Source: a virus | DNA length: 37,740 bases | Virus record (IMG/VR): IMGVR_UViG_3300035670_000637 | Span: 1-37,740 of that record | Strand: one strand, 5' to 3' | Part shown: positions 9,077 through 34,185 of the stretch, piece after piece | Numbering within the stretch: the first letter of the stretch is position 1 | Layout: each line of letters opens with the position of its first letter | Translations under genes and position numbers: made by a program | Notes under the pieces: model-generated | Database searches by the model: none | The model's input: the letters and a program-made list of their open reading frames with translations, nothing else | What the model was told of the DNA's origin: nothing

Positions 9077-10873
9077 ATGGCAGATATTGTTCACGGCATT
9101 AGGGTAGATTTCTCTAGAGATTCTTTATTTGATGAGTTAGGCATCAAACGGTTACAAGAAAGTTACATGCGAGAGGATGAAAAATCTCCGCAAGAAAGGT
9201 TCGCATATGTCTCAGCAAAATTTGGTAGCAATCCAGGACACAGTCAGCGTCTTTATGATTATAGCAGTAATCACTGGCTTAGCTACAGCACACCTATACT
9301 CTCTTTCGGACGTTCGAAGCGGGGTTTGCCTATTAGTTGCTTTCTACCTTATTTGGATGATTCTGCTGAAGGTCTGGTCAATACGTTATCAGAAGTGAAT
9401 TGGTTATCAATGTTAGGAGGTGGAATTGGAATCGGTGTTGGTATTAGGTCTGCTGATGATAAGTCTACTGGGATTATGCCTCATCTTAGGACTTATGATG
9501 CTTCGTCCCTTGCTTATAGGCAAGGGCGTACTAGACGGGGTTCTTACGCTGCTTATTTGGATATTAGTCATCCCGACATTCTTATGTTTCTTGATATGCG
9601 GAAGCCTACTGGTGATCCTAATATGAGAGCATTGAATCTTCACCATGGTGTAAATATTACCAATGCATTCATGCGTATCATTGAAGCATGTATGTTAAAT
9701 CCTGATGCAAACGATGACTGGCCTTTAATTGATCCGCACGATGGTACCGTTCGTGAAATTGTATCAGCAAAAGAAATCTGGCAAAGAGTTCTAGAACTTA
9801 GAATGCAAACGGGTGAACCTTACATTCATTTCATTGATACAAGCAATGAAACAATGCCTGACTTTCAAAAGAAATTAGGTCTATCAATTAAACAATCTAA
9901 TCTATGTAGCGAAATTATTTTACCAACCGATAAAGATAGAACAGCAGTCTGTTGTCTATCTTCAGTGAATCTGGAGTATTATGATGATTGGAAAAATGAC
10001 AAACTTTTTCTTCGGGACGTTGCGGAGATGCTTGATAACGTTCTTCAGTATTTCATTGATAATGCTCCTGACAGCATTTCAAGAGCAGTCTATTCCGCTA
10101 GCCGTGAACGGTCTATTGGTGTTGGTGCTCTCGGCTTTCATGCTTACCTTCAAAAAGTACAAGTCCCGTTTGAGTCAGCCTTGGCTGTAAGTAAAAACAA
10201 ACAAATGTTTAAACATATCCGTGAAGGATTGAATCATGCAAATATCGAATTGGGTAATGAGCGTGGTGAAGCGCCTGATGCCAAAGGTACAGGTCTTAGG
10301 TTCAGCCATGTTATGGCTATTGCTCCTAACGCCAGTTCTTCAATTATTATGGGCAACACATCACCATCCATCGAACCATATAGAGCAAATGCATATAGGC
10401 AAGACACTCTCAGCGGTGCGTGGTTAAATAAAAATAAGTGGTTAGATAAAATTATTATGGAGAAATGTGATGACCATTCTAAATTGGACTACAACGAAAT
10501 CTGGTCAAGTATCATCGCCAATGATGGAAGCGTTCAACACCTTGAATTTCTTGATGAGTGGACAAAAGACGTTTTCAAAACTTCAATGGAAATTGACCAA
10601 AGATGGATCATACAGCATGCCGCTGATCGCCAACCCCATATTGATCAAGCGCAAAGCCTTAATCTCTTTTTCAGACCCGACTCAAACATCAAATACATAC
10701 ACGCCGTACACTTTATGGCTTGGAAACAAGGACTCAAAACGCTTTACTACTGCCGCAGCGAGAAGATTTCGAAAGCTGATAAAGTCTCTAAAAAAGTAGA
10801 ACGTAAAGTCATTGAAGAATTAGATATGAAAGCATTAGCAACTGAAGATGTGTGTTTAGCATGTGAAGGATGA
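9077..10873 (+). CDS. nrdA: Ribonucleoside-diphosphate reductase alpha subunit (class Ia), no ATP cone
   Basis: 598 residues, shorter than bacterial NrdA (~750) because the N-terminal ATP cone is missing, so dATP feedback at that site should be absent. Active-site features: Cys88 (PISCFLPY), Asn275-Cys277-Glu279 (SNLCSEI), Cys293 (VCCLSSVN), the radical-transfer Tyr557-Tyr558 (LYYCRSEK) and C-terminal Cys593/Cys596 (CLACEG) for re-reduction by thioredoxin or glutaredoxin. It reduces NDPs to dNDPs with NrdB. Codon use changes in patches (about 9300-9640, 9990-10180, 10590-10790), all near conserved sites. Confidence 0.95.
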   Translation: MADIVHGIRVDFSRDSLFDELGIKRLQESYMREDEKSPQERFAYVSAKFGSNPGHSQRLYDYSSNHWLSYSTPILSFGRSKRGLPISCFLPYLDDSAEGLVNTLSEVNWLSMLGGGIGIGVGIRSADDKSTGIMPHLRTYDASSLAYRQGRTRRGSYAAYLDISHPDILMFLDMRKPTGDPNMRALNLHHGVNITNAFMRIIEACMLNPDANDDWPLIDPHDGTVREIVSAKEIWQRVLELRMQTGEPYIHFIDTSNETMPDFQKKLGLSIKQSNLCSEIILPTDKDRTAVCCLSSVNLEYYDDWKNDKLFLRDVAEMLDNVLQYFIDNAPDSISRAVYSASRERSIGVGALGFHAYLQKVQVPFESALAVSKNKQMFKHIREGLNHANIELGNERGEAPDAKGTGLRFSHVMAIAPNASSSIIMGNTSPSIEPYRANAYRQDTLSGAWLNKNKWLDKIIMEKCDDHSKLDYNEIWSSIIANDGSVQHLEFLDEWTKDVFKTSMEIDQRWIIQHAADRQPHIDQAQSLNLFFRPDSNIKYIHAVHFMAWKQGLKTLYYCRSEKISKADKVSKKVERKVIEELDMKALATEDVCLACEG

Positions 10874-12410: not shown

Positions 12411-12952
12411 TTGCTGGTTTAGATTATTCGATGACAAGCCCAGCAATGTGCTTGTCAAATTATGATTTTAATTATGAAAATTGTATCTTTTCATATCTAA
12501 CCACATCTAAAAAATATGATGTTCAATTTGATAACATTAAAGGTAGACACTTAGAATATTCACACTCCATTCAGCGTTATGATTTAATAGCGATCCATTT
12601 TCTTGATATGATGCTTGACTATGGTGTTCAAAAATGTTATATTGAAGGATACTCTATGGGATCAAAAGGTCGTGTCTTTGACATAGCAGAGAATACTGGT
12701 ATATTTAAACATACGGCTTGGAGATTTGGTATTAATGTAATTATTGTTCCACCGACAATTATTAAGAAATTTGCAACTGGTAAAGGAAACGCAAACAAAG
12801 AAAAAATGCAAGAGGCGTTTATAAATGAGACTGGTATAAATCTGAAGGATAAATTAAGTATGACAGAAAAACAATGGAATCCATCTTCAGATATTATTGA
12901 TGCATACTTTGTTTGTAAGTATGCTATTCATGAGGAAAATAAAAATGTCTGA
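12407..12952 (+). CDS. RuvC-like Holliday junction resolvase
   Basis: 181 residues with an RNase H-fold RuvC pattern: GLDYSMTSPAM (Asp6) at the first strand, CYIEGYSMGSKGRVFDIAEN (Glu80) with the family's YSxGSKGR-F-IaE turn, and C-terminal SSDIIDAYFV (Asp162, Asp165). These four acids would bind two metals. It likely resolves or trims branched DNA before packaging, taking the role of T4 gp49, which is not visible here. ATGA overlap with the zinc-ribbon gene. Confidence 0.85.
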   Translation: MIAGLDYSMTSPAMCLSNYDFNYENCIFSYLTTSKKYDVQFDNIKGRHLEYSHSIQRYDLIAIHFLDMMLDYGVQKCYIEGYSMGSKGRVFDIAENTGIFKHTAWRFGINVIIVPPTIIKKFATGKGNANKEKMQEAFINETGINLKDKLSMTEKQWNPSSDIIDAYFVCKYAIHEENKNV

Positions 12953-13565
12953 TAAAATAATTGATTTGTTAGATTTTGGTAAAGAAAATAAGTTTCATCC
13001 TAAACCATTAGCACATTTACACACATTCTACATATCAGGTGAAATAAAAGAGCCAGATATCTATGTTGAAATGTTTGATACAATTCGTAACACAAGTGAA
13101 AATGATATTGTAAAATTACATATCAATTCTTCAGGTGGTCATTTATTTACGGCTATACAATTCATGCGTGTACTAGCAGAATGTCCAGCACAAGTGATTT
13201 GTTCAGTAGAAGGTGCATGTATGTCTGCTGCTACGATGATATTCTTATCTGGTAATGCGTTTGAAATTTCAGAACATTCTATCTTTATGTTTCATAATTA
13301 CTCAAGTATCATTATGGGTAAAGGTGGTGAAATGTACGATAATATTATACATGAAAGAAAGTGGTCAGAAAAAATTCTTAGAGGTTCATATAAAAACTTT
13401 CTAACGGAAGAAGAAATATCTTCAATATTAGATAACAAAGATATCTGGATGGATGGTGAAGAAGTTCTAAAAAGACTTAAGAAAAAGCAGGAAACTGTTC
13501 AAAAAATGATTGATGATAAAACGAAGGTGAATAAGAATGCTGCCAAAACTCGAAAGAAAAAGTGA
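12945..13565 (+). CDS. ClpP-like serine protease
   Basis: 206 residues from the ATG at 12945, which overlaps the resolvase stop. ClpP fold marks: INSSGGHLFTAIQFM, nucleophile Ser94 in EGACMSAATM, His117 in FMFHNYS, and Asp166 in DNKDIWMDGEE. The C-terminal ~30 residues are a Lys-rich tail. ClpP-like proteins recur in T4-like marine phages; targets are unknown and could be host proteins or phage assembly proteins. No partner unfoldase is encoded nearby. Confidence 0.85.
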   Translation: MSDKIIDLLDFGKENKFHPKPLAHLHTFYISGEIKEPDIYVEMFDTIRNTSENDIVKLHINSSGGHLFTAIQFMRVLAECPAQVICSVEGACMSAATMIFLSGNAFEISEHSIFMFHNYSSIIMGKGGEMYDNIIHERKWSEKILRGSYKNFLTEEEISSILDNKDIWMDGEEVLKRLKKKQETVQKMIDDKTKVNKNAAKTRKKK

Positions 13566-17165: not shown

Positions 17166-17173
17166 TATAAATA
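17166..17173 (+). promoter_or_regulatory. T4-type late promoter of the endolysin gene
   Basis: TATAAATA followed by CTCTT, so 12 of 13 bases fit the extended T4 late consensus as I remember it (TATAAATACTATT). If the box starts at -13, transcription begins near 17179, leaving a ~26-nt leader with GGGAG before the endolysin ATG. It lies just past the previous gene's stop. Confidence 0.7.
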
Positions 17174-17204: not shown

Positions 17205-17828
17205 ATGGAATTCTTTACCGAAGATAGAGTAAGATCACTGATTCCAAGAGTTAAAAACTTTGACGAATGGTACGCAAACTTACTTGAGATTCTTCCTCTC
17301 TACGAAATAGATTCACCATCAAGAGTTGCAGCATTCATGGCACAATGCGGTCATGAATCAGGTGGATTTACAATCATGCAAGAAAATTTAAATTACTCCG
17401 CAGATGGATTAAGAAAGATTTTTGGCAAGTATTTTCCTTCCGTAGAGTTAGCAAATCAATATGCAAGAAAGCCACAAATGATTGCAAATCGTGTCTATGC
17501 AAATCGCATGGGCAACGGATCAGAATCTTCAGGTGATGGTTGGAATTATCGTGGGCGTGGTATCATTCAAATCACAGGCAAGAATAATTATACCAGATGT
17601 TCTCATTCTATGTTTGAAGACAATCTATTGATTGAACAACCAGATTTATTGCTAGATACATATTATGCAATTCATTCAGCATGTTGGTTCTGGACTGCTA
17701 CAAGATTAAATGAGTTGTCTGATGCTGGTGATATAAAGTTGATGACAAAACGTATCAACGGTGGTTTTATTGGTTTAGAAGATAGAATTAAACACTACAA
17801 TCATGCTTGTCATGTATTGAATGGATAA
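17205..17828 (+). CDS. Endolysin, glycoside hydrolase 19 (chitinase-like) family
   Basis: 207 residues, single domain, no signal peptide. Family marks: AAFMAQCGHESGGFTIMQEN (Glu51 and Glu60 as probable catalytic acids), ENLNYSADGLRKIFGKYF, then GDGWNYRGRGIIQITGKNNY. Phage GH19 enzymes cleave the peptidoglycan sugar backbone at lysis and need a holin for export; none is obvious nearby. The leader has a late promoter and an RBS hairpin like T4 gene e, which would stop premature synthesis. An alternative start is not needed: ATG lies 7 nt after GGAG. Confidence 0.9.
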   Translation: MEFFTEDRVRSLIPRVKNFDEWYANLLEILPLYEIDSPSRVAAFMAQCGHESGGFTIMQENLNYSADGLRKIFGKYFPSVELANQYARKPQMIANRVYANRMGNGSESSGDGWNYRGRGIIQITGKNNYTRCSHSMFEDNLLIEQPDLLLDTYYAIHSACWFWTATRLNELSDAGDIKLMTKRINGGFIGLEDRIKHYNHACHVLNG

Positions 17829-17839
17829 AAGGAGATATC

Positions 17840-18151
17840 ATGCTTAAATGGTTAAGAAATTTATTTGTAGGTGAAAAAACAGTGGCATCAACACCCGAAA
17901 CTATAACACCAGTGCCGAGTGTGTCACAGGAAAGAGTTGAGCAAATTAATCGTGAAACTGAAAAAGTTTTGGAAGAAGTGAAAGCTGAAAATGAAAAGAA
18001 GGCCGAAGCTGTGCCAAAGCAAGAATGGAAAGATTGGCCTAAGACTGAAAAGCCAGGCATTCAAAAGAAAGCAAAACCAAAACCTCAATCAACAACTGCT
18101 ACAAAATCTAAAGTAGTTAAAGCAAGAAGTAAACCGAAACTTAAAGTCTAA
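17840..18151 (+). CDS. Lys/Pro-rich low-complexity protein
   Basis: 103 residues from the ATG at 17840, after AAAGGAGATATC; the earlier in-frame ATG lies inside the endolysin gene. The N-terminus (MLKWLRNLFVGEK) is amphipathic and basic, the middle is a Glu/Lys coiled coil, and the C-terminus is Lys/Pro/Ala-rich (KKAKPKPQS, KARSKPKLKV). I recognise no family. An amphipathic N-terminus next to an endolysin raises the possibility of a membrane-acting lysis helper, which is speculation. It converges with a minus-strand gene, overlapping 4 nt. Confidence 0.6.
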   Translation: MLKWLRNLFVGEKTVASTPETITPVPSVSQERVEQINRETEKVLEEVKAENEKKAEAVPKQEWKDWPKTEKPGIQKKAKPKPQSTTATKSKVVKARSKPKLKV

Positions 18152-18294
18152 TCTTCTCTGGTGTAGTTAAGAACATTACCTACACCATACTGCGCTTCGC
18201 CTAACATCTTAGCGGCATAATCATTATCAGCCCATACATACGTGTGGGCTGTCTGATATTCATTGATACGAATCCATAATTTATATCGATACAT
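18148..18294 (-). CDS. 48-residue conserved phage protein
   Basis: A minus-strand frame with ATG overlapping the stop of the upstream minus-strand gene (TAATG). The product reads MYRYKLWIRINEYQTAHTYV then WADNDYAAKMLGEAQYGVGN, ending in LNYTRED, a pattern I recognise in short proteins of environmental phages. It completes the minus-strand block and ends against the convergent plus-strand gene. Function unknown; no export signal, unlike the other members of the block. Confidence 0.75.
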   Translation of the reverse strand: MYRYKLWIRINEYQTAHTYVWADNDYAAKMLGEAQYGVGNVLNYTRED

Positions 18295-18605
18295 TATCTA
18301 CAATACCTCTCTCTCGCAATCGTTCCATTTGGTAGCATAATCTCTTTCCATTCGGTACAATTTACATTTTCTTGTATATAAACAGGTTGCTGCTGAATAA
18401 TCACTGGCGCTGGTTGTGCTATAGGCGGTTGCGCTAAAGCATATCCAACTATACCACCGACAATCACTGGTGCAATCCATCGTCCTGCATGATGTTGATG
18501 ACCATAATAGTGATAACCATGATGATGTCTATGATGATGGTGTGGTCCCGCAAATGCTGGAGCCGAGAATACCATTACCAGTAAGCTGAGTAAAAATTTT
18601 TTCAT
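18294..18605 (-). CDS. Secreted His-rich protein with glycine-zipper-like helix
   Basis: 103 residues. A signal peptide (KKFLLSLLVMVFSAPAFA, cleavage about 19/20) precedes a His-rich stretch (GPHHHHRHHHGYHYYGHQHH) that could bind Zn, Ni or Cu, then a hydrophobic Gly-rich helix (WIAPVIVGGIVGYALA), a Pro/Gln linker, and VNCTEWKEIMLPNGTIARER ending in Cys-Arg. The last motif recurs in phage proteins of unknown function. It has its own promoter at 18637-18665. Probably periplasmic or outer-membrane associated. Confidence 0.75.
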   Translation of the reverse strand: MKKFLLSLLVMVFSAPAFAGPHHHHRHHHGYHYYGHQHHAGRWIAPVIVGGIVGYALAQPPIAQPAPVIIQQQPVYIQENVNCTEWKEIMLPNGTIARERYCR

Positions 18606-18636
18606 TTGCTGACATTCCTTGCATAAGTATATAGGG

Positions 18637-18665
18637 AGTATAGCATAGTATTATAAAATATGCAA
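18637..18665 (-). promoter_or_regulatory. Minus-strand sigma70-type promoter
   Basis: On the minus strand, TTGCAT (18660-18665) is separated by 17 bp from TATACT (18637-18642), 32 nt before the His-rich gene's ATG. An overlapping TATAATACTAT could act instead. It would give the His-rich gene expression independent of the rest of the block. Confidence 0.5.
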
Positions 18666-18673
18666 CATACAAA

Positions 18674-19048
18674 TCACTTATCTGATTTAGCGTCTTTTGC
18701 ATCTTTATCCGCTTGTCTCTGTGCTGCTGCACCTGCCATTGCTGCTTCTTTACCAGTACCAGCTAACATAATACCAGATAGTGTACCACATAAGAATGTA
18801 GCAACTGGTATAATTAATTCAAAAAACTTCTGGTCAATTGGACTAATAGCATTGAGAGGCTGAGTGACAAACATAATGCTGTAAAGCACCGTAAACACAA
18901 TGCCAATAAGAGTGAGTGCCAAGCAAACTCCGATGAAGAATTTAAGCCGTACCATAAGTTCATTTTCGGTGTACCTTTCTCCTGGCTTCGATGCCTTAGC
19001 AGTAGTTTCTTTTACTTTGTCAAAGATATCTTTCATTCCTTCTTGCAT
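18674..19048 (-). CDS. Two-helix inner-membrane protein
   Basis: 124 residues. Two hydrophobic segments (about 36-58 and 78-98) are separated by a short loop; the N-terminus is a charged helix (MKDIFDKVKETTAK) and the C-terminus is Lys/Asp/Ala-rich (QRQADKDAKDAKSDK). The GTLSGIMLAGTGKEAAMAGA stretch is Gly/Ala-rich. AAGGATG precedes the start, and the gene overlaps the upstream lipoprotein gene by 16 nt. A holin is conceivable from topology and linkage to the endolysin region, but a holin role is not shown. Confidence 0.6.
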   Translation of the reverse strand: MQEGMKDIFDKVKETTAKASKPGERYTENELMVRLKFFIGVCLALTLIGIVFTVLYSIMFVTQPLNAISPIDQKFFELIIPVATFLCGTLSGIMLAGTGKEAAMAGAAAQRQADKDAKDAKSDK

Positions 19049-19218
19049 ATCTTTTCATCCTTGAAAATGTATTTTGGACAGTCTCGGTTCACTTCACAAT
19101 GTGGCGCTTTACAGAATTCTTCTTCCCAATTACTTGGATTTTGACATGGATATCGATATCGTGCATCACATGATGTTATTAATAATGATATACTAAGTAT
19201 ACCAATTAACTTAACCAT
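19033..19218 (-). CDS. Small Cys-rich lipoprotein
   Basis: 61 residues from the ATG at 19218, preferred to 19233 because it gives a proper signal (MVKLIGILSISLLITSC) with lipobox LITSC. The mature part is Cys-rich: CDARYRYPCQNPSNWEEEFC then KAPHCEVNRDCPKYIF. The DARYRYPCQ..NW..C pattern is one I recognise in lipoproteins of T4-like environmental phages. Likely an envelope lipoprotein with disulfides. It overlaps the genes on both sides, so it is cotranslated. Confidence 0.75.
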   Translation of the reverse strand: MVKLIGILSISLLITSCDARYRYPCQNPSNWEEEFCKAPHCEVNRDCPKYIFKDEKICKKE

Positions 19219-19727
19219 GGAAGCCACATCCACAGGGCTTGACTCACTAACAATGCACCAGCTGCACCAACAACCGTACTGACATAGAACATAGGCATAC
19301 TTACAGCAAGAATACTTGCAGTTAATAAAACAATTGCAATCTGAAGAATGCTACCACTCCATGTGAACCATGGTGATTTTAATTTAGCAGCATCACGTTC
19401 CGCTTCAAGTGCTTTTGCTTTCTCCATGATTTCTTTTTTATCTTCACTCATGCGTTTAGCTTCAGCTTCAAACTTTTCTTTGTTCTCAGGTCTCTGTGCT
19501 TCAGCAGCACTGATTTCATAAAGAACACCACGAACATTTTTTGCTTGATACCATGCCCACATATTGTTTGCTTGAATGGTATTGTTTTGAATTTTACTAC
19601 TGTTTTGACCACCAATCATCGTATTGATTGCTAGAAGTGCCGCTAAAAATACAATAACGAAACCAGCTTTATCTTTGATTGCCGCTTCACGTTCACTGCG
19701 TGACGGTGCTTTTTTCTCTTCAGTCAT
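19206..19727 (-). CDS. DUF4337-type membrane protein
   Basis: 173 residues. Membrane helices at about 25-42 and two near the C-terminus (about 128-165), with a soluble helical part between (NNMWAWYQAKNVRGVLYEIS, then a Glu/Lys/Ala coiled coil). The WAWYQAKNxR segment is the DUF4337 hallmark. The family occurs in bacteria and large phages with unknown function. AAAGGAG precedes the start. Part of a minus-strand block devoted to envelope proteins. Confidence 0.75.
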   Translation of the reverse strand: MTEEKKAPSRSEREAAIKDKAGFVIVFLAALLAINTMIGGQNSSKIQNNTIQANNMWAWYQAKNVRGVLYEISAAEAQRPENKEKFEAEAKRMSEDKKEIMEKAKALEAERDAAKLKSPWFTWSGSILQIAIVLLTASILAVSMPMFYVSTVVGAAGALLVSQALWMWLPWLS

Positions 19728-19738
19728 AACACTCTCCT

Positions 19739-20392
19739 TTATTTGTTAGCCAATGGATTATCTAAGGCTTTCTTCAAATTATCATCAAGTTTTCTTTCTA
19801 ATGCTTTCATCTTTTGTTCCACTTCACGGTCCTGATTTCTCAATTGTTGTTCAGTATTTTTAACTGCTGCTGCAACGTCCTTATTTAGTTGAATGGCTGC
19901 TGCATCTACTTGCTTTTGTGCAGCACGAATTTCTGTTTTAGCTTCAGAAATTGCTTTGTCTATTTCTCTTGCTTGTTGTTTGTTAGCCCTTTCAACTTCT
20001 TCAACAACCTTTTCCAATCTACGAAGGTCACCTCTCAAATCATTTTTTATATCACGAGTGTATTCAGCCGTTTTATTAGCACCCTCTTCAATACTTTTTT
20101 GTGCTTTGACTGTACCTTCTTCCTGGACACTCAATCTTTTATCAAACTCACTTAAATCTGGCGCAACATACTCAGCAATCTTCTTTTTCATTCCCATATA
20201 ATCTTTATAAACTTCAAATGTACCATAAAGACCGCCTAATATCGATGATACTAGTGTGAATGCTACCATTAATTTTGCTGGTGTAAATTCATAACCACCG
20301 ATTGAAATTACGGTGTCTTTACTTGCATATTTTTTTACTGCTGCTTCCGCCTCATCAATTTTCTTATTAACATCTTTGATTTCTTCGGCCAT
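19739..20392 (-). CDS. Membrane-anchored coiled-coil protein
   Basis: 217 residues. One hydrophobic segment (about 39-59, LMVAFTLVSSILGGLYGTF) is followed by a very long Glu/Lys/Gln/Ala coiled coil (about 75-210). The N-terminal ~25 residues are also coiled-coil-like. Such a single-span rod could tether or sense something in the cytoplasm or periplasm; orientation is not clear from the sequence. Sandwiched 2 nt from the big secreted protein gene and 11 nt from the DUF4337 gene, it is almost surely in the same transcript. Confidence 0.7.
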   Translation of the reverse strand: MAEEIKDVNKKIDEAEAAVKKYASKDTVISIGGYEFTPAKLMVAFTLVSSILGGLYGTFEVYKDYMGMKKKIAEYVAPDLSEFDKRLSVQEEGTVKAQKSIEEGANKTAEYTRDIKNDLRGDLRRLEKVVEEVERANKQQAREIDKAISEAKTEIRAAQKQVDAAAIQLNKDVAAAVKNTEQQLRNQDREVEQKMKALERKLDDNLKKALDNPLANK

Positions 20393-20394
20393 TT

Positions 20395-22182
20395 TTACCT
20401 CTGTAAGTATTGTTGGTCCACCATTTCTTGGTGTAATCTATCGCTGGCTAATTGCCTCAACGCTCTAGCATTATCTACGGTTCTTTGTCCTCTATAAATC
20501 TCTTTTGGAGTATAGAAGACTGCATCCCGAAGTACCAAACTCGCATACTGATTGAAGCCTGGAGGTTGTATTGCTATCGATGCGATATCAACACCACCAG
20601 CAACTTCATTATTTTGTGCATTTCGATTCACTGAAGATGTATTTGGTCCATCTTTTTTCTCTTCAGTATTTGATTTAGATTCTATAATAGCATTTATAGG
20701 ATCCGCTTTGTTTGTTAAAAAGTTAGCCTGTGATGTTGGTGTATCAGTTATCAAACTCGCAAGTGGATTTACTACGCCTGTTTGTATACCAAACGATGAA
20801 CTGGAATCATTATTATTTGTAGTTTGTAATAATGTTTGTGTAGTGATTCCTGAAGATGTACTAACACTCGCTTGATTTGTCGATAATAAATTTAATCCTG
20901 TGTTGAATTCTTGATTTTTGTTTGTTGTATGTTGTGTACTTGTAGAATTTGTTTCAACTTGATTTTGCACTGTTGGTGATAGCAGACCATTCATTTGATT
21001 CTGCACACCAGGCAATTTAAATCCGTCGGTTGCAATACTTGTTGGTGATTGAAACAATGATATAGATTGTTGTGATTTATTTTCTTTTGATGTATTTTCT
21101 TGTATTGATTGCTGTTGACTTATCATACCAATTTCTATACTTTGTCTTGTAGCTCTCGATGCAATTTGTTCAGCCTGTCTTACGGTTTGATTAGTTATCT
21201 TTTCAGTTTCAGATATAGCCGTTGTCACAGCATCCATTGTTATTTGCTGCTCTCTGATTTGATTATCTTCTATTTTAATTAGTGTATCAATTAATCTGTT
21301 GATGTCAACTAAAGGTTCTTCATATACACCTTCCTCTTTTTCAGCCATAAAAAGTTTATCATCAGATTTTGGCGGAGGAGGTGCGTCATCTTGTGATTGT
21401 TGTGGATTAAATTCAGGTGATGGTTTAAGTGTATCAGTCGTTGTCGTTGTTGATGCTAAATTTTTCTGTAACGTTTCTTGAAATTTAGGACATTCCGGGC
21501 TAAACAATGGATTTATTACACATGGATCAGGCTTATATTTTAATTGAAAATTTACATTGGTTATTTCAGGTCCATAAGGTCCTACCCAATAGTTGTTATC
21601 TTTACCTGCAAAACCAAATATAACATTTGCTAAATCATTCGGCCGTCTAAGTTTGCTCCAATTTTCACTCCATGAATAATCAGTCCATTCGTGAATAAAA
21701 TTTAAACTGTAATTAAAATTTTCAATCCATTGACCAGATTTAGTATAGCCTTGAACGTAGGCTTTCAGTTCATCTTGTCTTGCATCATCCCAGTAATTAC
21801 CATTTTTACTGCGCCAACTAAAAGTAAACCCTGTCGTAACTAAACCTGTTCCTGAATTAGGTAATGCTTTAGATACATTGACCACTTGATATAACTCTGT
21901 ATATCCATAACTAAAATTAATACTACCATCAGGTCTTATATAAGGAGTTCCAGGACTGCAATCAGGATCACCTGGCTGCCAGCATTTTAACTCATTTACA
22001 AACTTGCCGTTTTGCCATGTAGAAACTGCCGATGTTGCAGTTTGTGTATTGTTTACTAAATTACCTGTTATATCTACTGTAGCAGTTTGCGAAAACACGG
22101 GTGCTATAAGTAGTAGCACACAAATCAAAGCAAAGAACGCTATGAAACCTTTTGTGTGCTTATAATCATAATTGAGTTTCAT
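20395..22182 (-). CDS. Large secreted protein with beta-sandwich-like N-terminal domain
   Basis: 595 residues. Signal/anchor at about 12-32 (GFIAFFALICVLLLIAPVFS). Domain 1 (about 33-235) is Trp/Tyr/Asn-rich beta structure with two Cys pairs (CWQPGDPDC and CVINPLFSPEC), plausibly carbohydrate-binding or adhesive. Domain 2 (about 235-530) is low-complexity Ser/Thr/Gln/Asn with a coiled-coil patch at 295-360. Domain 3 (about 530-595) holds VDIASIAIQPPGFNQYASLV and NARALRQLASDRLHQEMVDQ, recognisable in phage hypotheticals. ATGA-coupled to the Asn-rich protein gene, so the two are probably made together. Confidence 0.75.
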   Translation of the reverse strand: MKLNYDYKHTKGFIAFFALICVLLLIAPVFSQTATVDITGNLVNNTQTATSAVSTWQNGKFVNELKCWQPGDPDCSPGTPYIRPDGSINFSYGYTELYQVVNVSKALPNSGTGLVTTGFTFSWRSKNGNYWDDARQDELKAYVQGYTKSGQWIENFNYSLNFIHEWTDYSWSENWSKLRRPNDLANVIFGFAGKDNNYWVGPYGPEITNVNFQLKYKPDPCVINPLFSPECPKFQETLQKNLASTTTTTDTLKPSPEFNPQQSQDDAPPPPKSDDKLFMAEKEEGVYEEPLVDINRLIDTLIKIEDNQIREQQITMDAVTTAISETEKITNQTVRQAEQIASRATRQSIEIGMISQQQSIQENTSKENKSQQSISLFQSPTSIATDGFKLPGVQNQMNGLLSPTVQNQVETNSTSTQHTTNKNQEFNTGLNLLSTNQASVSTSSGITTQTLLQTTNNNDSSSSFGIQTGVVNPLASLITDTPTSQANFLTNKADPINAIIESKSNTEEKKDGPNTSSVNRNAQNNEVAGGVDIASIAIQPPGFNQYASLVLRDAVFYTPKEIYRGQRTVDNARALRQLASDRLHQEMVDQQYLQR

Positions 22183-23459
22183 CTAAATGAACTTGCAGCT
22201 TGAGATGATTGTGGATCAACTTTAATTTCTTTTTCAGTCACATAATCATACTTAGGAATTTTATGTGGATTCGCTTCCCATAATGCTTTTGCTTTTTCAC
22301 CAATTTGACCTTCATATGGGCATGGTGTTCCGGCAGCAAGCATTGCTTCCCAAACTCTTCTGTCTTGGCACATCGTAGCAACCGCCGCAACTTTCATACC
22401 CATATCGTAAAGTGTTTTTGAAAGTTTCAGACGTTCGCAATTCAAATCTCTTTGTGTTCCACCTAACGCCATACCTAAGAATTGTGTTTGAACTGCACCA
22501 GATGATCCAGTTGTACATAGATCAGCACCACCTCCGCTCATCATTGCCGGTGCAATTGCGGTTGGTGGTGGCTGAATCACACGTTGAGTTATGTTTGTTT
22601 CATTTATGTTTCTATTTGTCATATCTCCAGTTTGCACATTGGTATTTACGTTACTATTTGTGCTTGTACTTTGATTCACATTTGTATTATTACTTGTCGT
22701 GTTATTAATATTCCGATTTGTCATATCACCTGTTTGATTATTGTTCACGGTGCTTGTACTTGTAGAATTATTATTGTTATTATAATTCATAGTTCCCATA
22801 TTTGTATTTAAATTTTCAGTCTTAGTCACGTTATTATTATTAATCGTTTGTGTTCCTGAATTTACGTTGTAATTGATATTTGTACTGTCAGATTTATTAT
22901 TATTGTTATATGTCATTGTACCGCTGTTCACATTGTTATTATTATATGTCATAGTTCCTGTATTGACATTTTCATTTCTATTTGTGCTGGTCGTATTATT
23001 ATTGTTATTGTAAGTCATTGTACCGCTGTTTACATTGTTATTATTGTAAGTTACAGAGCCAGCCATGTTGTTATTGTTTGTATATGTGACCGAACCTGAC
23101 ATCCGATTGTCATTTATGTTAGTTGCGGTGCCACTCTGTATGTTATTATTCGTATTAACGTTTGTGCTTGTATTAACATTGTTATTGTTATTGGTAGAAT
23201 TGCTGTTTACGGTGCTGGTAGACGTTGCAGTTGAAGTGCTGACGCTATTGTTATTGGTTGTAACCGTACTTGTGCTATTGGATGTTGAATTTGTGTCTAC
23301 CAAACTGCGGCCACCGTCATAATTTCCTTGGTCTATGAGTCCAACCGAACTTGTTGTCGTGCCGCCTTGTGTGCTTTGTGTGCTTGTTACCTGTCCATAT
23401 ACCAAATTCGCTAAGAGCATGGCAAAAATCATGCTTAAACTTAAGGTTAGTCTACGCAT
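22179..23459 (-). CDS. Secreted Asn-rich repeat protein with conserved Cys-containing C-terminal domain
   Basis: 426 residues. Signal peptide ~1-22 (ending VYGQ). Residues ~60-291 are a repeat of short Asn/Thr/Ser units, e.g. SGTMTYNNNNVN and QTGDMTNRNIN, predicted as beta-solenoid or amyloid-like. Residues ~293-402 form a conserved domain: RVIQPPPTAIAPAMMSGGGA, NCERLKLSKTLYDMGMKVAA, CQDRRVW and AGTPCPYEGQIGEKAK, with four Cys (315, 341, 364, 380). I recognise this domain from T4-like environmental phages; function unknown. First gene of the minus-strand block, with GGAAG before its start. Confidence 0.8.
   Translation of the reverse strand: MRRLTLSLSMIFAMLLANLVYGQVTSTQSTQGGTTTSSVGLIDQGNYDGGRSLVDTNSTSNSTSTVTTNNNSVSTSTATSTSTVNSNSTNNNNNVNTSTNVNTNNNIQSGTATNINDNRMSGSVTYTNNNNMAGSVTYNNNNVNSGTMTYNNNNNTTSTNRNENVNTGTMTYNNNNVNSGTMTYNNNNKSDSTNINYNVNSGTQTINNNNVTKTENLNTNMGTMNYNNNNNSTSTSTVNNNQTGDMTNRNINNTTSNNTNVNQSTSTNSNVNTNVQTGDMTNRNINETNITQRVIQPPPTAIAPAMMSGGGADLCTTGSSGAVQTQFLGMALGGTQRDLNCERLKLSKTLYDMGMKVAAVATMCQDRRVWEAMLAAGTPCPYEGQIGEKAKALWEANPHKIPKYDYVTEKEIKVDPQSSQAASSFR
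22587..23282 (-). repeat. Degenerate Asn-codon-rich coding repeats
   Basis: Within the 426-residue protein, units of about 12 codons ([S/T]G[T/S]xTYNNNN plus a variable linker) recur at least seven times between residues ~119 and 230; an 11-codon QTGDMTNRNIN unit occurs twice (242 and 276). Neighbouring copies are near-identical at the DNA level, so copy number may vary between isolates. Confidence 0.8.
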
Positions 23460-23533
23460 GGTTCTTCCTTTTTATTGTTGTTGTATTACCACAACATTAT
23501 TTAGTATTGTGACGGAAAAACGACAGTTTGTAC
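23460..23533. other. Divergent intergenic region
   Basis: It separates the minus-strand envelope block from the plus-strand genes. On the minus strand it supplies a GGAAG site and a weak late-box-like CTAAATAAT; no good minus-strand -35/-10 pair is visible. The plus-strand promoter begins at its right edge. Confidence 0.4.
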
Positions 23534-23981: not shown

Positions 23982-24326
23982 ATGAAAAAATTTATCGCTA
24001 CCTTAGCATCCGCAATTACAATGTCTTCAGCGATTGCATCTCCTTACAATTTAGAACAGCTTGTTTCTGGTAAGGTAGTCACTGTGGAACCTTTAACTCA
24101 AACAACATATCATCGAGTTCCTCAACAATCGTGTAATGTTACAACATTTGATGGCAGATACATAGAGCAATGCAGGACTTATCAGGATCGAATTTACACT
24201 CAGCGAGTTGTAGGATATAAAGTTCAATTCGAATACAATGGTGGAATACATAACGTTGTTTTGAAAAATGATCCTGGCAGTCATGTAAGGATTAGATTAG
24301 TTACACAATTTTATGTATTGGAATAA
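23982..24326 (+). CDS. Exported periplasmic protein
   Basis: 114 residues directly abutting the previous stop. Signal peptide of ~19-20 residues (MKKFIATLASAITMSSAIAS). The mature part is beta-rich: VVTVEPLTQTTYHRVPQQSC, RYIEQCRTYQDRIYTQRVVG, YKVQFEYNGGIHNVVLKNDP, GSHVRIRLVTQ. This resembles the beta-barrel end of Gly-zipper 2TM outer-membrane lipoproteins without the zipper. Two Cys could form a disulfide. Acts outside the cytoplasm; role unknown. Confidence 0.7.
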   Translation: MKKFIATLASAITMSSAIASPYNLEQLVSGKVVTVEPLTQTTYHRVPQQSCNVTTFDGRYIEQCRTYQDRIYTQRVVGYKVQFEYNGGIHNVVLKNDPGSHVRIRLVTQFYVLE

Positions 24327-29692: not shown

Positions 29693-29767
29693 CCCGGATT
29701 AGCTCAGAGGTAGAGCAGCGTCTTGATAAGGCGAAGGCGGATGGATCGTTACCATCATCCGGGACCA
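29693..29767 (+). tRNA. tRNA-Ile (GAT)
   Basis: Acceptor CCCGGAT/ATCCGGG, canonical D arm, anticodon loop TTGATAA, CCA encoded. The T-loop is ATCGTTA rather than the usual TTCRANY, so the 54-58 pair is swapped. Its ACCA end is also the foot of the first long hairpin of the next RNA element. Confidence 0.85.
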
Positions 29768-30263
29768 TAGTGAAGTGCATTGCCGAACAGACAAATGGTG
29801 GCGAGCCGATGAGTAGTGCATTTCACTATGGTAACCCGACTAACTGTGATACGAGCGTCAACTGCTCGGTAGCGGTTACCATAAAGTCCGATGTGAAATG
29901 AAGGTCAAAGTTTTTCGAGACTCAATTGGCAGTGATTTTCATCTTCGGACACCATATTGAAGCACATTGAGTTGGACTTCGTACAAAGTCCAATGGGGAG
30001 TTGAAGGTAGAAGAAGCGGCCGCTCTGTCTACCACATACACTCCGAGATACCAGTGTGTTTCAATATGGTAGCAATACCAGAACACGTGGCCATCAGCGT
30101 GTATAAAGGCGGCGAGTCTTAAACGAAGTCGGTGACGGGATAGGTAGAACAGTTACTCCGAAAATGTAACGCCGGATTTTGTAACCGGCAATCATATTGA
30201 AGCATATTCTATCAGGGCAGTATTGTTCGGCGGTTTAGAGCCGTGAGTATGTTTCAATATGGT
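29764..30263 (+). ncRNA. Large structured RNA element with three covarying long hairpins
   Basis: A gene-free ~500-nt stretch between tRNA-Ile and tRNA-Asp. Three pairs of 16-nt arms are complementary: 29764-29779 with 29817-29832, 29951-29966 with 30055-30070, and 30191-30206 with 30248-30263. The copies share sequence but differ by compensatory changes, and all keep a G-U pair at the same place. Between and inside them lie further stems: GGTAACC/GGTTACC (29830-29880), CGAGC/GCTCG, GTCCGA/TCGGAC (29886-29950), TTGGACTT/AAGTCCAA, GGTAGA/TCTACC, ACACG/CGTGT and GCCGG/CCGGC. Large ornate RNAs (GOLLD, ROOL) are known beside phage tRNAs, but I cannot assign this one to a family. Confidence 0.75.
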
Positions 30264-30335
30264 TCCTTAGTATATCGGTTAGTATAGCGGCTTGTCACGC
30301 CGCAGGGACGGGTTCGACTCCCGTAGGGACCGCCA
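30261..30335 (+). tRNA. tRNA-Asp (GTC)
   Basis: Acceptor GGTTCCT/AGGGACC with one T-G pair, anticodon loop TTGTCAC, T-arm ACGGG/CCCGT, discriminator G and CCA encoded. Its first three bases are also the end of the third long hairpin upstream. Confidence 0.95.
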
Positions 30336-30343
30336 AGTTCAAT

Positions 30344-30419
30344 GGTGATTGTAGCACAATGGTAGTGCCCCGGATTGTGAGTCCGTAAAGTGTGAGTTCG
30401 AATCTCATCAATCACCCCA
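30344..30419 (+). tRNA. tRNA-His (GTG)
   Basis: Acceptor GTGATTG/CAATCAC with a genome-encoded extra G(-1) opposite C73, the histidine identity mark. Anticodon loop contains GTG, T-loop TTCGAAT, CCA encoded. Confidence 0.95.
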
Positions 30420-30426
30420 AAGTTTT

Positions 30427-30500
30427 GCCTTCGTCGGTTAGTGGTAAACCAACGGTTTTGTAATCCGTGACTGTCTGTTCGATTCAGACCGAAGGCACCA
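30427..30500 (+). tRNA. tRNA-Thr (TGT)
   Basis: Acceptor GCCTTCG/CGAAGGC, anticodon loop TTTGTAA, T-loop TTCGATT, CCA encoded. The last anticodon-stem pair is T-T. Confidence 0.93.
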
Positions 30501-30508
30501 AAATTATA

Positions 30509-30584
30509 CACCGTTCGTCTAGCGGTCTAGGACATCGCCCTTTCAAGGCGAAGATCACGGGTTCAAATCCCGTACGGTGTGCCA
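30509..30584 (+). tRNA. tRNA-Glu (TTC)
   Basis: Acceptor ACACCGT/ACGGTGT, anticodon stem TCGCC/GGCGA with loop CTTTCAA, T-arm CACGGG-type, CCA encoded. Confidence 0.95.
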
Positions 30585-30591
30585 GATTATT

Positions 30592-30668
30592 CCGTCATTA
30601 GTTCAGCAGAATAGAACACTTGACTACGAATCAAGAGGTCGGGGGTTTGAATCCTTCATGACGGGCCA
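30592..30668 (+). tRNA. tRNA-Arg (ACG)
   Basis: Acceptor CCGTCAT/ATGACGG, anticodon stem CTTGA/TCAAG with loop CTACGAA, CCA encoded. A34 would need host TadA to read all CGN codons except CGG. Confidence 0.95.
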
Positions 30669-30673
30669 GAATT

Positions 30674-30749
30674 GCCGCTTTAGCTGATGTGGTCATAGCA
30701 GGCGCCTGAAGAGCGTCGGAACGTGGTTCGATCCCACGAGGCGGCACCA
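30674..30749 (+). tRNA. tRNA-Phe (GAA)
   Basis: Acceptor GCCGCTT/AGGCGGC (one T-G), anticodon stem GGCGC/GCGTC with loop CTGAAGA, T-loop TTCGATC, CCA encoded. Reading frame shift of the loop by one would give TGA (Ser), but the stem pairing fixes GAA. G37 instead of A37 is unusual for Phe. Confidence 0.85.
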
Positions 30750-30751
30750 AT

Positions 30752-30825
30752 GCGGGTATAACTTAGTGGTAAAGTAACTGGCTTTTAACCAGTAAACCGG
30801 AGTTCAATTCTCCGTGCCCGTACCA
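30752..30825 (+). tRNA. tRNA-Lys (TTT)
   Basis: Acceptor GCGGGTA/TGCCCGT, anticodon stem ACTGG/CCAGT with loop CTTTTAA, T-loop TTCAATT, CCA encoded. Confidence 0.95.
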
Positions 30826-30831
30826 GATTAT

Positions 30832-30907
30832 TCCGAAATAGCTCAGTCGGTAGAGCGACGGACTGTTAATCCGCAGGTCCCTGGTTCGAGCCCAGGTTTC
30901 GGAGCCA
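30832..30907 (+). tRNA. tRNA-Asn (GTT)
   Basis: Acceptor TCCGAAA/TTTCGGA, anticodon stem CGGA/TCCG with loop CTGTTAA, T-loop TTCGAGC, CCA encoded. The spacer before it (CCAGATTATTCCG) repeats the spacer before tRNA-Arg(ACG). Confidence 0.95.
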
Positions 30908-30914
30908 ATTCATT

Positions 30915-31003
30915 GGGTACTGTTCCCTACGGCGGACTGTAAATCCGTTGCCATAATATGTAGGGTGGTCGGCAGTTAGGTTCAATTCCTTCAGTACCCA
31001 CCA
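30915..31003 (+). tRNA. Aberrant tRNA-Tyr (GTA)
   Basis: Acceptor GGGTACT/AGTACCC with ACCA, and an anticodon arm GCGGA-CTGTAAA-TCCGT are clear. Only 10 nt separate acceptor and anticodon stem, so no normal D arm fits, while the variable region is enlarged. CCCTAC in the D position can pair with GTAGGG in the variable region, and the T stem is weak. It may be a rearranged or decayed gene. Confidence 0.65.
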
Positions 31004-31007
31004 ATAT

Positions 31008-31084
31008 CTCGGAGTAGTTCCAATTGGCAGAACGATGGTCTCCAAAACCATATGTTGGCGGTTCGAATCCGTCCTCCGAGGCCA
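31008..31084 (+). tRNA. tRNA-Trp (CCA)
   Basis: Acceptor CTCGGAG/CTCCGAG, anticodon stem ATGGT/ACCAT with loop CTCCAAA, T-loop TTCGAAT, CCA encoded. Confidence 0.95.
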
Positions 31085-31284
31085 GATCCCCGGCCCTACG
31101 CCGGTTATCAAGTAGGCGCAATAAGACTAGCGTTAGAAGTCTTAGGTATTCATACCTGCCTCCCTTCGGGCTATTCATCCGAAAGGGTAAAACGTATGTG
31201 TGGGTCTTACCAGCCCCGAGTAGGTATGGACAGGGCAACAACTCAAATCGGGGCTTCTGGGAAGAAGTAGCCGACCGAATTTAC
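31085..31284 (+). ncRNA. Second structured inter-tRNA spacer (~200 nt)
   Basis: No protein gene fits. Stems: CCTAC/GTAGG near 31094-31116, AAGACT/AGTCTT (31123-31143), AGGTA-TTCA-TACCT (31144-31157), CCCTTCGG/CCGAAAGGG with one bulge (31161-31188), and a perfect AGCCCCGA/TCGGGGCT (31211-31255). It lacks the long CATATTGAA arms of the first element. It may be a separate small RNA or remnants of tRNA genes; I could not fit a cloverleaf. Confidence 0.45.
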
Positions 31285-31359
31285 GGGGGGTTAGTGATAA
31301 CGGTAGCACAGGGGCTTTGCAAGCCTTTAGTAGGAGTTCGATTCTCCTATCCTCCACCA
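31285..31359 (+). tRNA. tRNA-Ala (TGC)
   Basis: Acceptor GGGGGGT/ATCCTCC with two G-T pairs, anticodon stem GGGGC/GCCTT with loop TTTGCAA, T-loop TTCGATT, CCA encoded. The G3-T70 pair is the alanine identity element. Confidence 0.9.
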
Positions 31360-31365
31360 AATCAT

Positions 31366-31443
31366 GTGTCGGTGGCTGAGTGGTCCAAAGCAACGGTCTG
31401 CAAAATCGTAAAGCCGCCAGTTCGAATCTGGCCCGGCACTCCA
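31366..31443 (+). tRNA. tRNA-Cys (GCA)
   Basis: Acceptor GTGTCGG/CCGGCAC, anticodon stem ACGGT/ATCGT with loop CTGCAAA, T73 discriminator typical of Cys, T-loop TTCGAAT, CCA encoded. Confidence 0.93.
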
Positions 31444-31450
31444 CATATAA

Positions 31451-31527
31451 GCCCAGATGATGGAATAGGTATACATATTGGACTTAAAATTCAAGTTATG
31501 CGGGTTCAAATCCCGCTCTGGGTACCA
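31451..31527 (+). tRNA. tRNA-Leu (TAA), short variable loop
   Basis: Acceptor GCCCAGA/TCTGGGT, anticodon stem TTGGA/TTCAA with loop CTTAAAA, T-loop TTCAAAT, CCA encoded. At 77 nt it lacks the long variable arm usual in bacterial tRNA-Leu. Confidence 0.88.
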
Positions 31528-31531
31528 ATAA

Positions 31532-31605
31532 CTCGGATTGGTGAAATGGTATCATTCGTGCTTTGGGAGCATGAGGCGCAAGTTCGATTCTTGCATCCGA
31601 GACCA
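31532..31605 (+). tRNA. tRNA-Pro (TGG)
   Basis: Acceptor CTCGGAT/ATCCGAG, anticodon loop TTTGGGA between GTGC and GCAT, T-loop TTCGATT, CCA encoded. Confidence 0.95.
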
Positions 31606-31620
31606 AAAGATGTTATAATA

Positions 31621-31697
31621 GCCCGTGTGGTGCAATTGGTAGACACGCTTGACTTAGGATCAAGATGTTGAGGGTTCGAATCCTTCTACGGGCACCA
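31621..31697 (+). tRNA. tRNA-Leu (TAG), short variable loop
   Basis: Acceptor GCCCGTG/TACGGGC, anticodon stem CTTGA/TCAAG with loop CTTAGGA, T-loop TTCGAAT, CCA encoded. Like the TAA isoacceptor it has no long variable arm. Confidence 0.92.
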
Positions 31698-31710
31698 GTA
31701 TAAAGTTTAT

Positions 31711-31781
31711 TGCGGTGAGTCAGGAGAGAAGAGGGTCTCATAAGCCTTTCTTAGGTGGTTCGAATCCACCCGCCGCAACCA
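31711..31781 (+). tRNA. tRNA-Met or Ile2 (CAT), short D arm
   Basis: Acceptor TGCGGTG/CGCCGCA, anticodon stem AGGGT/GCCTT with loop CTCATAA, T-arm GGTGG/CCACC, CCA encoded. Total length 71: only 14 nt lie between acceptor and anticodon stem, too few for a normal D arm with GG. Confidence 0.75.
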
Positions 31782-31786
31782 GAAAT

Positions 31787-31863
31787 GCGGGTATGGTGTT
31801 TAACGGTTAGCATGTCAGTCTTCCAAACTGAAGGTCCGAGTTCAAATCTCGATGCCCGCTCCA
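31787..31863 (+). tRNA. tRNA-Gly (TCC)
   Basis: Acceptor GCGGGTA/TGCCCGC, anticodon stem TCAGT/ACTGA with loop CTTCCAA, T-loop TTCAAAT, T73, CCA encoded. Spacer plus 5' end (CCAGAAATGCGGGTATG) repeats at tRNA-Gly(GCC), pointing to duplication. Confidence 0.95.
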
Positions 31864-31877
31864 GCGATCTTAAGTAA

Positions 31878-32249
31878 TTACCAATAAAATCTTAAACCTA
31901 TCATATAATTGTTTATCGCAGCACCACCATGAGAGATTGTCCGTGCAGTCAGAAATATAGTTCTATTTCTATCCGATAAGTAATCGGTGAAAAAGTAACT
32001 TCCAACTAATAATGATATAAAATATAAATCAATTTTATCTGTTGAAGGATTTTTACCTAAAATTAAATTTTTTTCATAGTAACCAAGATGATACTTGTTA
32101 GGCAAATCTCTTGTTAATAGCCAATCAGCCGTCATTGCAGCGGTTGATGCAATAAAAAGATTTTTATTTTTATCGGACCAATCTTCCCAGTGACTGTAAC
32201 ATACGGGAGAGAGTGTGAATAGGAGACTGTAAAGAAATATTTTTAGCAT
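31878..32249 (-). CDS. Exported/membrane protein inside the tRNA array
   Basis: 123 residues on the opposite strand to the tRNAs. Signal peptide MLKIFLYSLLFTLSPVCYSH, then FIASTAAMTADWLLTRDLPN, YHLGYYEKNLILGKNPSTDK and hydrophobic IDLYFISLLVGSYFFTDYL; ends in NNYMIGLRFYW. The 'AADW.TTRD..Y.E.NP.LG..PS' pattern is one I know from small membrane proteins in phages and bacteria. Expression would need its own promoter; only CATAAATA, one base off the late box, lies just upstream (32257-32264). Confidence 0.75.
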   Translation of the reverse strand: MLKIFLYSLLFTLSPVCYSHWEDWSDKNKNLFIASTAAMTADWLLTRDLPNKYHLGYYEKNLILGKNPSTDKIDLYFISLLVGSYFFTDYLSDRNRTIFLTARTISHGGAAINNYMIGLRFYW

Positions 32250-32266
32250 ATAACTATTATTTATGA

Positions 32267-32341
32267 GCCTTGTTAGTTTAATGGTAAAACGCTGCCCTTA
32301 CAAGACAGATAGCGGTGGTTCGATTCCATCACAAGGCACCA
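32267..32341 (+). tRNA. tRNA-Val (TAC)
   Basis: Acceptor GCCTTGT/ACAAGGC, anticodon loop CTTACAA, anticodon stem CTGCC/GACAG with one C-A mismatch, T-loop TTCGATT, CCA encoded. Confidence 0.92.
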
Positions 32342-32347
32342 AAGTAT

Positions 32348-32423
32348 ATCACCGTGGTCTAATGGATAAGGCAACGCTCTTCTAAAGCGTCCGATGGGGG
32401 TTCGAATCCCTCCGGTGGTACCA
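32348..32423 (+). tRNA. tRNA-Arg (TCT)
   Basis: Acceptor ATCACCG/CGGTGGT, anticodon stem ACGCT/AGCGT with loop CTTCTAA, T-loop TTCGAAT, CCA encoded. It reads AGA/AGG, codons much used in this AT-rich phage. Confidence 0.95.
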
Positions 32424-32451
32424 ATCAATTAATTTAACACAGGAGATTATC

Positions 32452-33015
32452 ATGGCCGCAACATGGCTTATATCAGATACGCATTTCGGTCATGATAAAA
32501 CATGTACCGTTTTTAAAAGAGATGACGGGACTCCACTCAGACCATTCAAAGATGCTGAAGAAATGGACGAAGAAATGGTCAAGCGTTGGAACGAACGAGT
32601 AAGCAAGAAAGATAAAGTATACCATTTGGGGGATGTTGTCATTGCAAGAAAATCGTTAGCAACTTTATATCGTTTAAACGGTGATAAAGTTTTGATCAAA
32701 GGTAATCATGATATCTTTAAATTGGATGATTACACAAAACACTTTAGAGATATTCGTGGATACCATGTAATGGCTGGGCTTATTTTCAGTCATGTACCTG
32801 TTCATGCTGATAGCATTGAAAGATTTGGGTGTAATGTTCACGGGCATCTACACCATAGAAGAGTTCTTGTCAATGGTAAAATTGATCCAAGATACTTCAA
32901 TGTGAGTGTAGAATGCATCGACTTTGCACCAATTCTTTTAGAGGATCTTAGAACAAAAATCCTTGAGCAAGGCGGTGATGTTGTAATGAAAAAGTCTAAG
33001 CATGATGTTGATTGA
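32452..33015 (+). CDS. Calcineurin-like metallophosphoesterase
   Basis: 187 residues after ACAGGAG. The metal-binding motifs are complete: Asp9/His11 (LISDTHFGH), Asp61 (HLGDVV), Asn85-His86-Asp87 (IKGNHD), His114 (FSHVPVH) and His130/His132 (NVHGHLHH). Phage members are small phosphoesterases whose substrate is usually unknown (cyclic nucleotide, RNA end or cell-signalling compound). The stop codon abuts the first base of tRNA-Gln, so gene and tRNA share a transcript that must be cut precisely. Confidence 0.9.
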   Translation: MAATWLISDTHFGHDKTCTVFKRDDGTPLRPFKDAEEMDEEMVKRWNERVSKKDKVYHLGDVVIARKSLATLYRLNGDKVLIKGNHDIFKLDDYTKHFRDIRGYHVMAGLIFSHVPVHADSIERFGCNVHGHLHHRRVLVNGKIDPRYFNVSVECIDFAPILLEDLRTKILEQGGDVVMKKSKHDVD

Positions 33016-33091
33016 TGGGGATTCGCCAAGTTGGTAAGGCATCGGATTTTGATTCCGACACGCACAGGTTCGAATCCTGTATCCCCTACCA
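33016..33091 (+). tRNA. tRNA-Gln (TTG)
   Basis: Acceptor GGGGAT/ATCCCC with unpaired T1-T72 (E. coli tRNA-Gln also has a weak first pair), anticodon stem CGGA/TCCG with loop TTTTGAT, T-loop TTCGAAT, CCA encoded. It begins the base after the upstream stop codon. Confidence 0.93.
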
Positions 33092-33178
33092 ACTATCAAG
33101 CCAATAGAAATAATTCATGAAAAATATAGCACTTATAGTTATACATAATGTTACGATAAACCATTTACGGAGGACGAA

Positions 33179-33628: not shown

Positions 33629-33771
33629 TGGAAAAAGAAAAGGACTACGTGTGTATTGTCTGCGGTCATCGTCTTGCTGAATCAGACTACCTTTCATTAC
33701 CAGAAGAAGTTGGTTGCCCTGAATGTGGTGTTTCAAAGCATGATTACTACTTAGAAGATTTTGGAGATTGA
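33628..33771 (+). CDS. Rubredoxin-like electron carrier, separate from rubrerythrin
   Basis: 47 residues. Two Cys pairs, YVCIVCGHRL and GCPECGVSKHDYYLEDF, give the four iron ligands of a rubredoxin; the GVSKHDYYLED end matches the usual G.sKddF. The ORF starts on the last A of the rubrerythrin stop. Normal rubrerythrin has this domain fused at the C-terminus, so the pair looks like a split version. It would pass electrons to the di-iron centre. Confidence 0.85.
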   Translation: MEKEKDYVCIVCGHRLAESDYLSLPEEVGCPECGVSKHDYYLEDFGD

Positions 33772-33777
33772 TATATA

Positions 33778-33870: not shown

Positions 33871-33889
33871 ACATCACTAAGGAAATATT

Positions 33890-34180: not shown

Positions 34181-34185
34181 GAAAT

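Follow-up and report, generated by a model that had tools for sequence, protein, structure and literature searches.

Curli clusters are carried by some phages of SAR11 bacteria (PMC7029224, PMC9599517), and a phage of OM43 carries CsgGF (PMC9004378). In HTVC008M and its relatives, these curli or type VIII secretion clusters form a multi-gene exported set, in which an Asn-containing repeat protein is accompanied by a larger repeat-bearing partner, and an action at the host surface has been proposed. In this study, we analysed a 37,740-base virus record (here referred to as the window) with a T4-like gene content, including primase, thymidylate synthase, ribonucleotide reductase, RuvC-like resolvase, exonuclease, and 23 tRNAs. 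Its minus-strand block at 18148–23459 consists of eight open reading frames (ORFs), designated A to H, of which A, B, and C resemble the phage curli in being a multi-gene exported set of SAR11 phages with a repeat protein (A) and a larger partner (B), but differ in lacking CsgG, CsgF, and the curlin repeat. Our data support A-B-C as a phage-specific, co-conserved, and probably late envelope module.

The initial annotation had described eight genes on the minus strand, and every one of these ORFs was recovered in its place. Likewise, a heuristic scan bore out that seven of the eight products are exported, lipoprotein, or membrane proteins, assigning signal peptides to A, B, and G, a lipobox (ITSC) to E, a single transmembrane (TM) helix to C, and TM helices to D and F, while in the 48-aa product of H it detected neither an export nor a membrane feature. 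Genes A and B overlap by ATGA, gaps of 2 nt and 11 nt separate B from C and C from D, the pairs D/E, E/F, and G/H overlap, and F and G lie 68 nt apart. Since A–F have many homologs and are under strong protein-level constraint, they are real genes. The conserved units are A-B-C and E-F, with D as an optional neighbour, while G (18294–18605, minus strand; 103 aa, signal peptide, His-rich) and H (18148–18294, minus strand) are rare and were found at two other loci and one other locus, respectively. Just outside the block, a signal-peptide-like protein is encoded at 23982–24326 (plus strand), the C-terminal part of which matches the hypothetical protein NF008437/PRK11280 (3e-6).

A profile of the Cys domain of A revealed matches in at least 596 viral stretches. 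Of the viral loci in which 5 kb or more of sequence follow A, all (78/78) had B and then C downstream, in this order. Thus, gene-neighbourhood analysis, proposed earlier as a check, revealed the co-occurrence in other phages on which the reading as a gene set depended. A single-sequence search with B resulted in 34 loci, in which the presence of B is given by the search, whereas that of A and C is not; A was found in 32 of them, and the other two start inside B. Profile searches against all ORFs of 127 sequences (the window being counted twice) identified A in 125, B in 114, and C in 108, and D in about 29 loci. Using tblastn with A, we obtained 11 phage records, mostly Pelagibacter and Roseobacter phages, with alignments over the C-terminal Cys domain, and inspection of the neighbourhoods revealed that in S28C10 and the pelagiphages A precedes B, a large exported protein, and C, a small protein of the TM/coiled-coil type. 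The same search of the phage collection with B, C, D, and F was mostly empty due to divergence, so that profiles were needed. Carriers of the module comprise podophages, roseophages, and a T4-like pelagiphage, including cultured SAR11 phages of different types; most are uncultured and aquatic. A cellular origin was considered and rejected: no isolate bacterial genome with the module was found, and in the bacterial/archaeal collection A occurred only in contigs from metagenome-assembled genomes or single cells (30 loci), which may be viral themselves. The length of A correlates with that of B (rho 0.54) and of C (rho 0.56) when relatedness is ignored. Based on conserved signal peptides, a gene order kept in unrelated phages, and purifying selection, the notion of a phage envelope gene set is well supported. 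None of the three genes belongs to a named family in Pfam or NCBIfam, though the module occurs in hundreds of viral stretches as well as in cultured phages that infect SAR11, which are among the most abundant ocean bacteria.

Membership of the phage curli was rejected based on the absence of CsgG and on comparison with the HTVC008M cluster. CsgG was detected in none of 53 A-bearing records, which are possibly fragments, but was found in HTVC008M as positive control; vice versa, A was absent from all 16 curli-bearing records, two of which represent the same genome, with positive controls run. In addition, a search of Pfam revealed no curli family for A, and none of the profiles of A, B, and C matched the curli genes of HTVC008M. 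Another region of HTVC008M, at 106562–109412, looks like A-B-C and proved unrelated. With only two distinct curli genomes near complete, the mutual exclusion of A and curli is suggestive only. It would fit a functional replacement of phage curli in which cells would be clumped by an extracellular, curli-like fibre, A providing the amyloid-type subunit and B the adhesin. So would the beta-type alternation in A (see below) and the fact that, here as in curli clusters, a repeat protein goes together with a larger partner bearing repeats. However, the non-overlap of A and CsgG rests on these few genomes, the structure prediction for the A spacer is of low confidence, and the missing CsgG, curli family, and profile matches all speak against such a fibre, which we consider highly improbable.

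Gene A (22179–23459, minus strand) encodes a protein of 426 aa with a signal peptide, an Asn/Thr/Ser spacer, and a C-terminal Cys domain. A signal-peptide-like N-terminus was detected in 110 of 121 A relatives (91%), compared to 15% of the other proteins of the same loci. The spacer (aa 25–295; 22575–23387, minus strand) is rich in N, T, and S and displays a two-residue alternation, with an even-odd z of 11 in the window and a median of 20 and a minimum of 10 over 62 spacers of relatives, and its glycines are mostly 12 or 22 residues apart. Beta structure would produce such an alternation, and DNA-repeat expansion may contribute to it. Compared to two related loci, this low-complexity part revealed 78–88% identity with synonymous sites being saturated. 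AlphaFold2 (AF2) modelled it with low confidence and weak strands at residues 182–250. As to the amyloid or solenoid matrix suggested by the initial annotation, the beta-type alternation makes a solenoid or an amyloid-like fibre possible, while the low-confidence model and the absence of the curli export route count against it. The Cys domain (aa 296–426; 22182–22574, minus strand) carries the motifs DxC, NCER, CQD, and TPCP, and its cysteines 315, 341, 364, and 380 are invariant in 52 sequences. It is predicted by AF2 to contain helices at 339–396, revealed a dN of 0.13–0.15 at a dS of about 1 or higher compared to two related loci, and is weakly linked to PHROG 20531 (7.5e-12), a function-unknown family and the only one obtained for A from the PHROGs. 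Foldseek with the A model resulted in no match and a PDB profile search with A in nothing credible.

Gene B (20395–22182, minus strand) encodes 595 aa with a signal peptide, a beta-sandwich head, a long helix, a variable middle, and a conserved tail; here, 89 of 105 relatives (85%) had a signal-peptide-like N-terminus, again compared to 15% of the other proteins of the same loci. AF2 predicted a confident beta-sandwich for the head (aa c. 36–230, pLDDT mostly >85; 21493–22077, minus strand), a long helix at 294–357, and a helical tail, the confidence for the middle being low. Best PDB matches of the head in Foldseek were the sugar-binding domains of Fbs1/Fbs2 (E 3e-7) with modest TM-scores, followed by BtuJ1 and then by various carbohydrate-binding modules (CBMs), so that the predicted structure (AF2 plus Foldseek) is that of a jelly-roll beta-sandwich. 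Independently, the B-family profile matched FBXO6 in the PDB at GKD..FWAG.YGP.V.N (E 0.0097), corresponding to the motif GKDNNYWVGPYGPEITN (B aa 193–209; 21556–21606, minus strand), which is shared with F-box-associated (FBA) domains. In Fbs proteins, residues of this loop region contact the glycan, and those of B may be equivalent. While the B head thus shares the beta-sandwich fold with bacterial CBMs and with the FBA domain of Fbs1/Fbs2 (FBXO2/FBXO6), along with the motif GKDxxxWxGxYGPxVxN, its sequence similarity to Fbs1/Fbs2 is confined to that motif, and the Fbs setting is a eukaryotic ubiquitin ligase. A Pfam scan of B revealed no FBA/CBM-type domain at E ≤ 1. Altogether, we predict the head to be a domain of the glycan-binding type. 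Compared to two related loci, its dN was 0.03–0.09 at a dS of about 1 or higher, and the divergent B heads of podophages are homologous (hhalign 97.9%, E 6.5e-13). The C-terminal tail (aa 521–595, FYxPKEIYxxQ...DNxRALR; 20398–20622, minus strand) displayed near-invariant columns in 62 sequences.

Among phage tail proteins, too, there are some with the fold of the B head, and the late-region position of the module lies near tail-fibre genes; both would suit a reading of A and B as virion-associated proteins, e.g., fibres, in spite of their signal-peptide-like N-termini. Yet these strong and conserved signal-peptide features may reasonably be taken to argue against virion parts, as the initial annotation had proposed, and in HTVC115P the tail-fibre and tail-fibre assembly genes are separate from A and B. 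We found no proteomic record of A or B in purified virions in the literature searched, and we regard such a role as quite improbable.

Some relatives of B differ in their middle part: at loci L042 (6123–7877) and L051 (7333–9021), it is formed by Cys repeats of about 22 aa arranged in tandem, with the sequence QQCSLNPLYATDCPGYAxAYHD; no paper on this CPGY repeat was found in the literature searched. Relatives with a short B (L074, 8277–9567; L070; L092; and about 17 other loci) harbor, between B and C, members of three additional families of small exported proteins. None of these families had a credible match in Pfam or PDB, with two of them being compared with PDB as profiles.

Gene C (19739–20392, minus strand) encodes 217 aa with one TM helix, a coiled coil, and an invariant C-terminal NPL motif; the match of podophage C proteins in a profile comparison with the C family was weak. 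Positive charges of C favour the side after the TM helix, so that the coiled coil would more often be inside the cell, which does not match a periplasmic scaffold. The second conserved unit consists of E (19033–19233, minus strand; 66 aa, Cys-rich, lipobox) and F (18674–19048, minus strand; 124 aa, membrane hairpin), which were paired wherever found, mostly 3' of C. Some E relatives possess an anchor helix instead of the lipobox, and F matched PHROG 25359 (3.6e-16), a function-unknown family, as the only PHROG. The E-F pair is also present in Actinomycetia phage DSL-LC01, which is absent from the A matches.

With a TM helix plus coiled coil in C, a small lipobox protein in E, and a membrane hairpin in F, the block recalls two-component spanins and small holins, as would fit a dedicated lysis function, in which C would be the spanin-like inner-membrane part, E its lipoprotein partner, and F the holin, while A and B would help to breach the outer envelope. 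Moreover, an endolysin gene of the GH19 type (17205–17828, plus strand; PHROG 181 endolysin, 6e-77) adjoins the block as context outside the module, and lysis genes lie near the module in Mosig (GTA_holin_3TM two genes before the neighbour region of A), HTVC023P (M15 peptidase directly after C), and MW202481 (lysozyme near). In HTVC115P, Baldr, and most large genomes, however, they are distant, and searches with PF00182, PF11351, and PF00959 revealed no consistent general association of the module with endolysins or 3TM holins. Unlike a spanin pair, E overlaps F and not C, no family match was obtained (in the PHROGs, none to a spanin for C), and the predicted topology of C is unclear or opposite to that of an i-spanin. 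Furthermore, a candidate spanin lies outside the block at 5767–6294 (plus strand); its 175-aa product has a coiled coil and, at the N-terminus, TM segments, and weakly matches an Rz-like spanin PHROG (E 0.0038). In the literature searched, no paper on Asn-rich lysis proteins was found. Overall, we consider a dedicated lysis function unlikely.

In small phages, the trio has genes for terminase, tail fibres, capsid, or lysis in its vicinity. As to the T4-type late core, ATAAATA was found within 120 bp of 29 of 75 A genes heading an operon; for the other operon heads, the number was 78 of 427 (p = 2e-4, which is optimistic, related sequences not being independent). In the window, an imperfect T4-type late motif, ACTAAATA, lies upstream of A (23498–23505, minus strand), and the neighbouring endolysin gene has a perfect ATAAATA at 17167–17173. 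Both the late-region synteny and the T4-type late motifs point to expression late in infection and therefore disfavour superinfection exclusion in its classical early form, one of the functions considered in the initial annotation. A broader surface shield, with A and B coating the envelope or masking receptors and thereby blocking rival phages or sparing progeny from debris, would agree with products that are exported, fibrous, and of a sugar-binding type, and D weakly matches a superinfection-exclusion PHROG (phrog_4980). This match is at chance level (E 0.021), though, A–C matched no exclusion family, the late placement and motifs are unlike those of classical early exclusion genes, and no outer-membrane export route was identified, so that a shield appears rather doubtful. 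Gene D itself (19206–19727, minus strand; 173 aa) was confirmed by profile as a full member of DUF4337 (PF14235; 7e-31, 107.9 bits against a gathering cut-off of 27), as annotated before; it is only an optional neighbour of A-B-C. To our knowledge, this family has no known function. No paper on DUF4337 in phages was found in the literature searched, and comparison of D with PDB profiles yielded nothing credible.

Taken together, we assign a probability of roughly 50% to A-B-C being an envelope assembly that binds glycans and acts late, i.e., when infection is nearing its end. This reading is favoured by the 78/78 co-occurrence, the signal peptides, the B-head fold and motif, the spacer alternation, and the constraint, as well as by the length correlations of A with B and C, late-region placement, and ATAAATA enrichment. 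Against it stand the charge bias of C, the modest Fbs1 TM-scores, the lack of a corresponding Pfam domain in B, the imperfect late motif of the window, and the lack of a known outer-membrane exporter for A or B. According to the mechanism that we infer, A and B would leave the cytoplasm via the Sec pathway and form a complex reaching beyond the inner membrane, in which the Asn-rich beta-type spacer of A would be a ruler or fibre whose length varies, with partners being bound by the disulfide-type Cys domain of A. B would contribute the glycan-binding head and dock through its conserved tail, and C would be the inner-membrane anchor of the set. The assembly would bind an envelope glycan, either peptidoglycan or a surface sugar, and alter the envelope of the infected cell late in infection, in this phage as well; E-F would be a second conserved membrane pair, often travelling with A-B-C. 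The alternatives discussed above partly overlap with this general statement, and their probabilities do not add up to one. A bolder version, which we put forward tentatively and hold to be possible at best, is a new phage envelope machine, in which a secreted beta fibre rich in Asn and a protein binding glycans would be tethered to an inner-membrane coiled coil. Carried as one unit by many aquatic phages that are unrelated to each other, it would be an alternative to curli and rebuild or breach the Gram-negative envelope as infection ends. If A-B-C is indeed a shared late envelope device, it would offer a new handle on envelope control, release, or competition in phages of streamlined aquatic bacteria, and the module is testable in the cultured phages HTVC023P, HTVC202P, and Mosig.

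Apart from the block, some further features were observed in the window. The large subunit of ribonucleotide reductase (9077–10873, plus strand) comprises only 598 aa, with the best stretch of the match to the Pfam barrel domain ending at position 337 of 523, and a ClpP-like serine protease (PF00574, 7e-8) is encoded at 12897–13565 (plus strand). While one tRNA gene is located at 15365, the other 22 are densely clustered at 29693–34259 (plus strand), and a gene for a rubrerythrin/ferritin-like protein (33179–33628, plus strand; PF02915, 2.5e-17) lies within this cluster.
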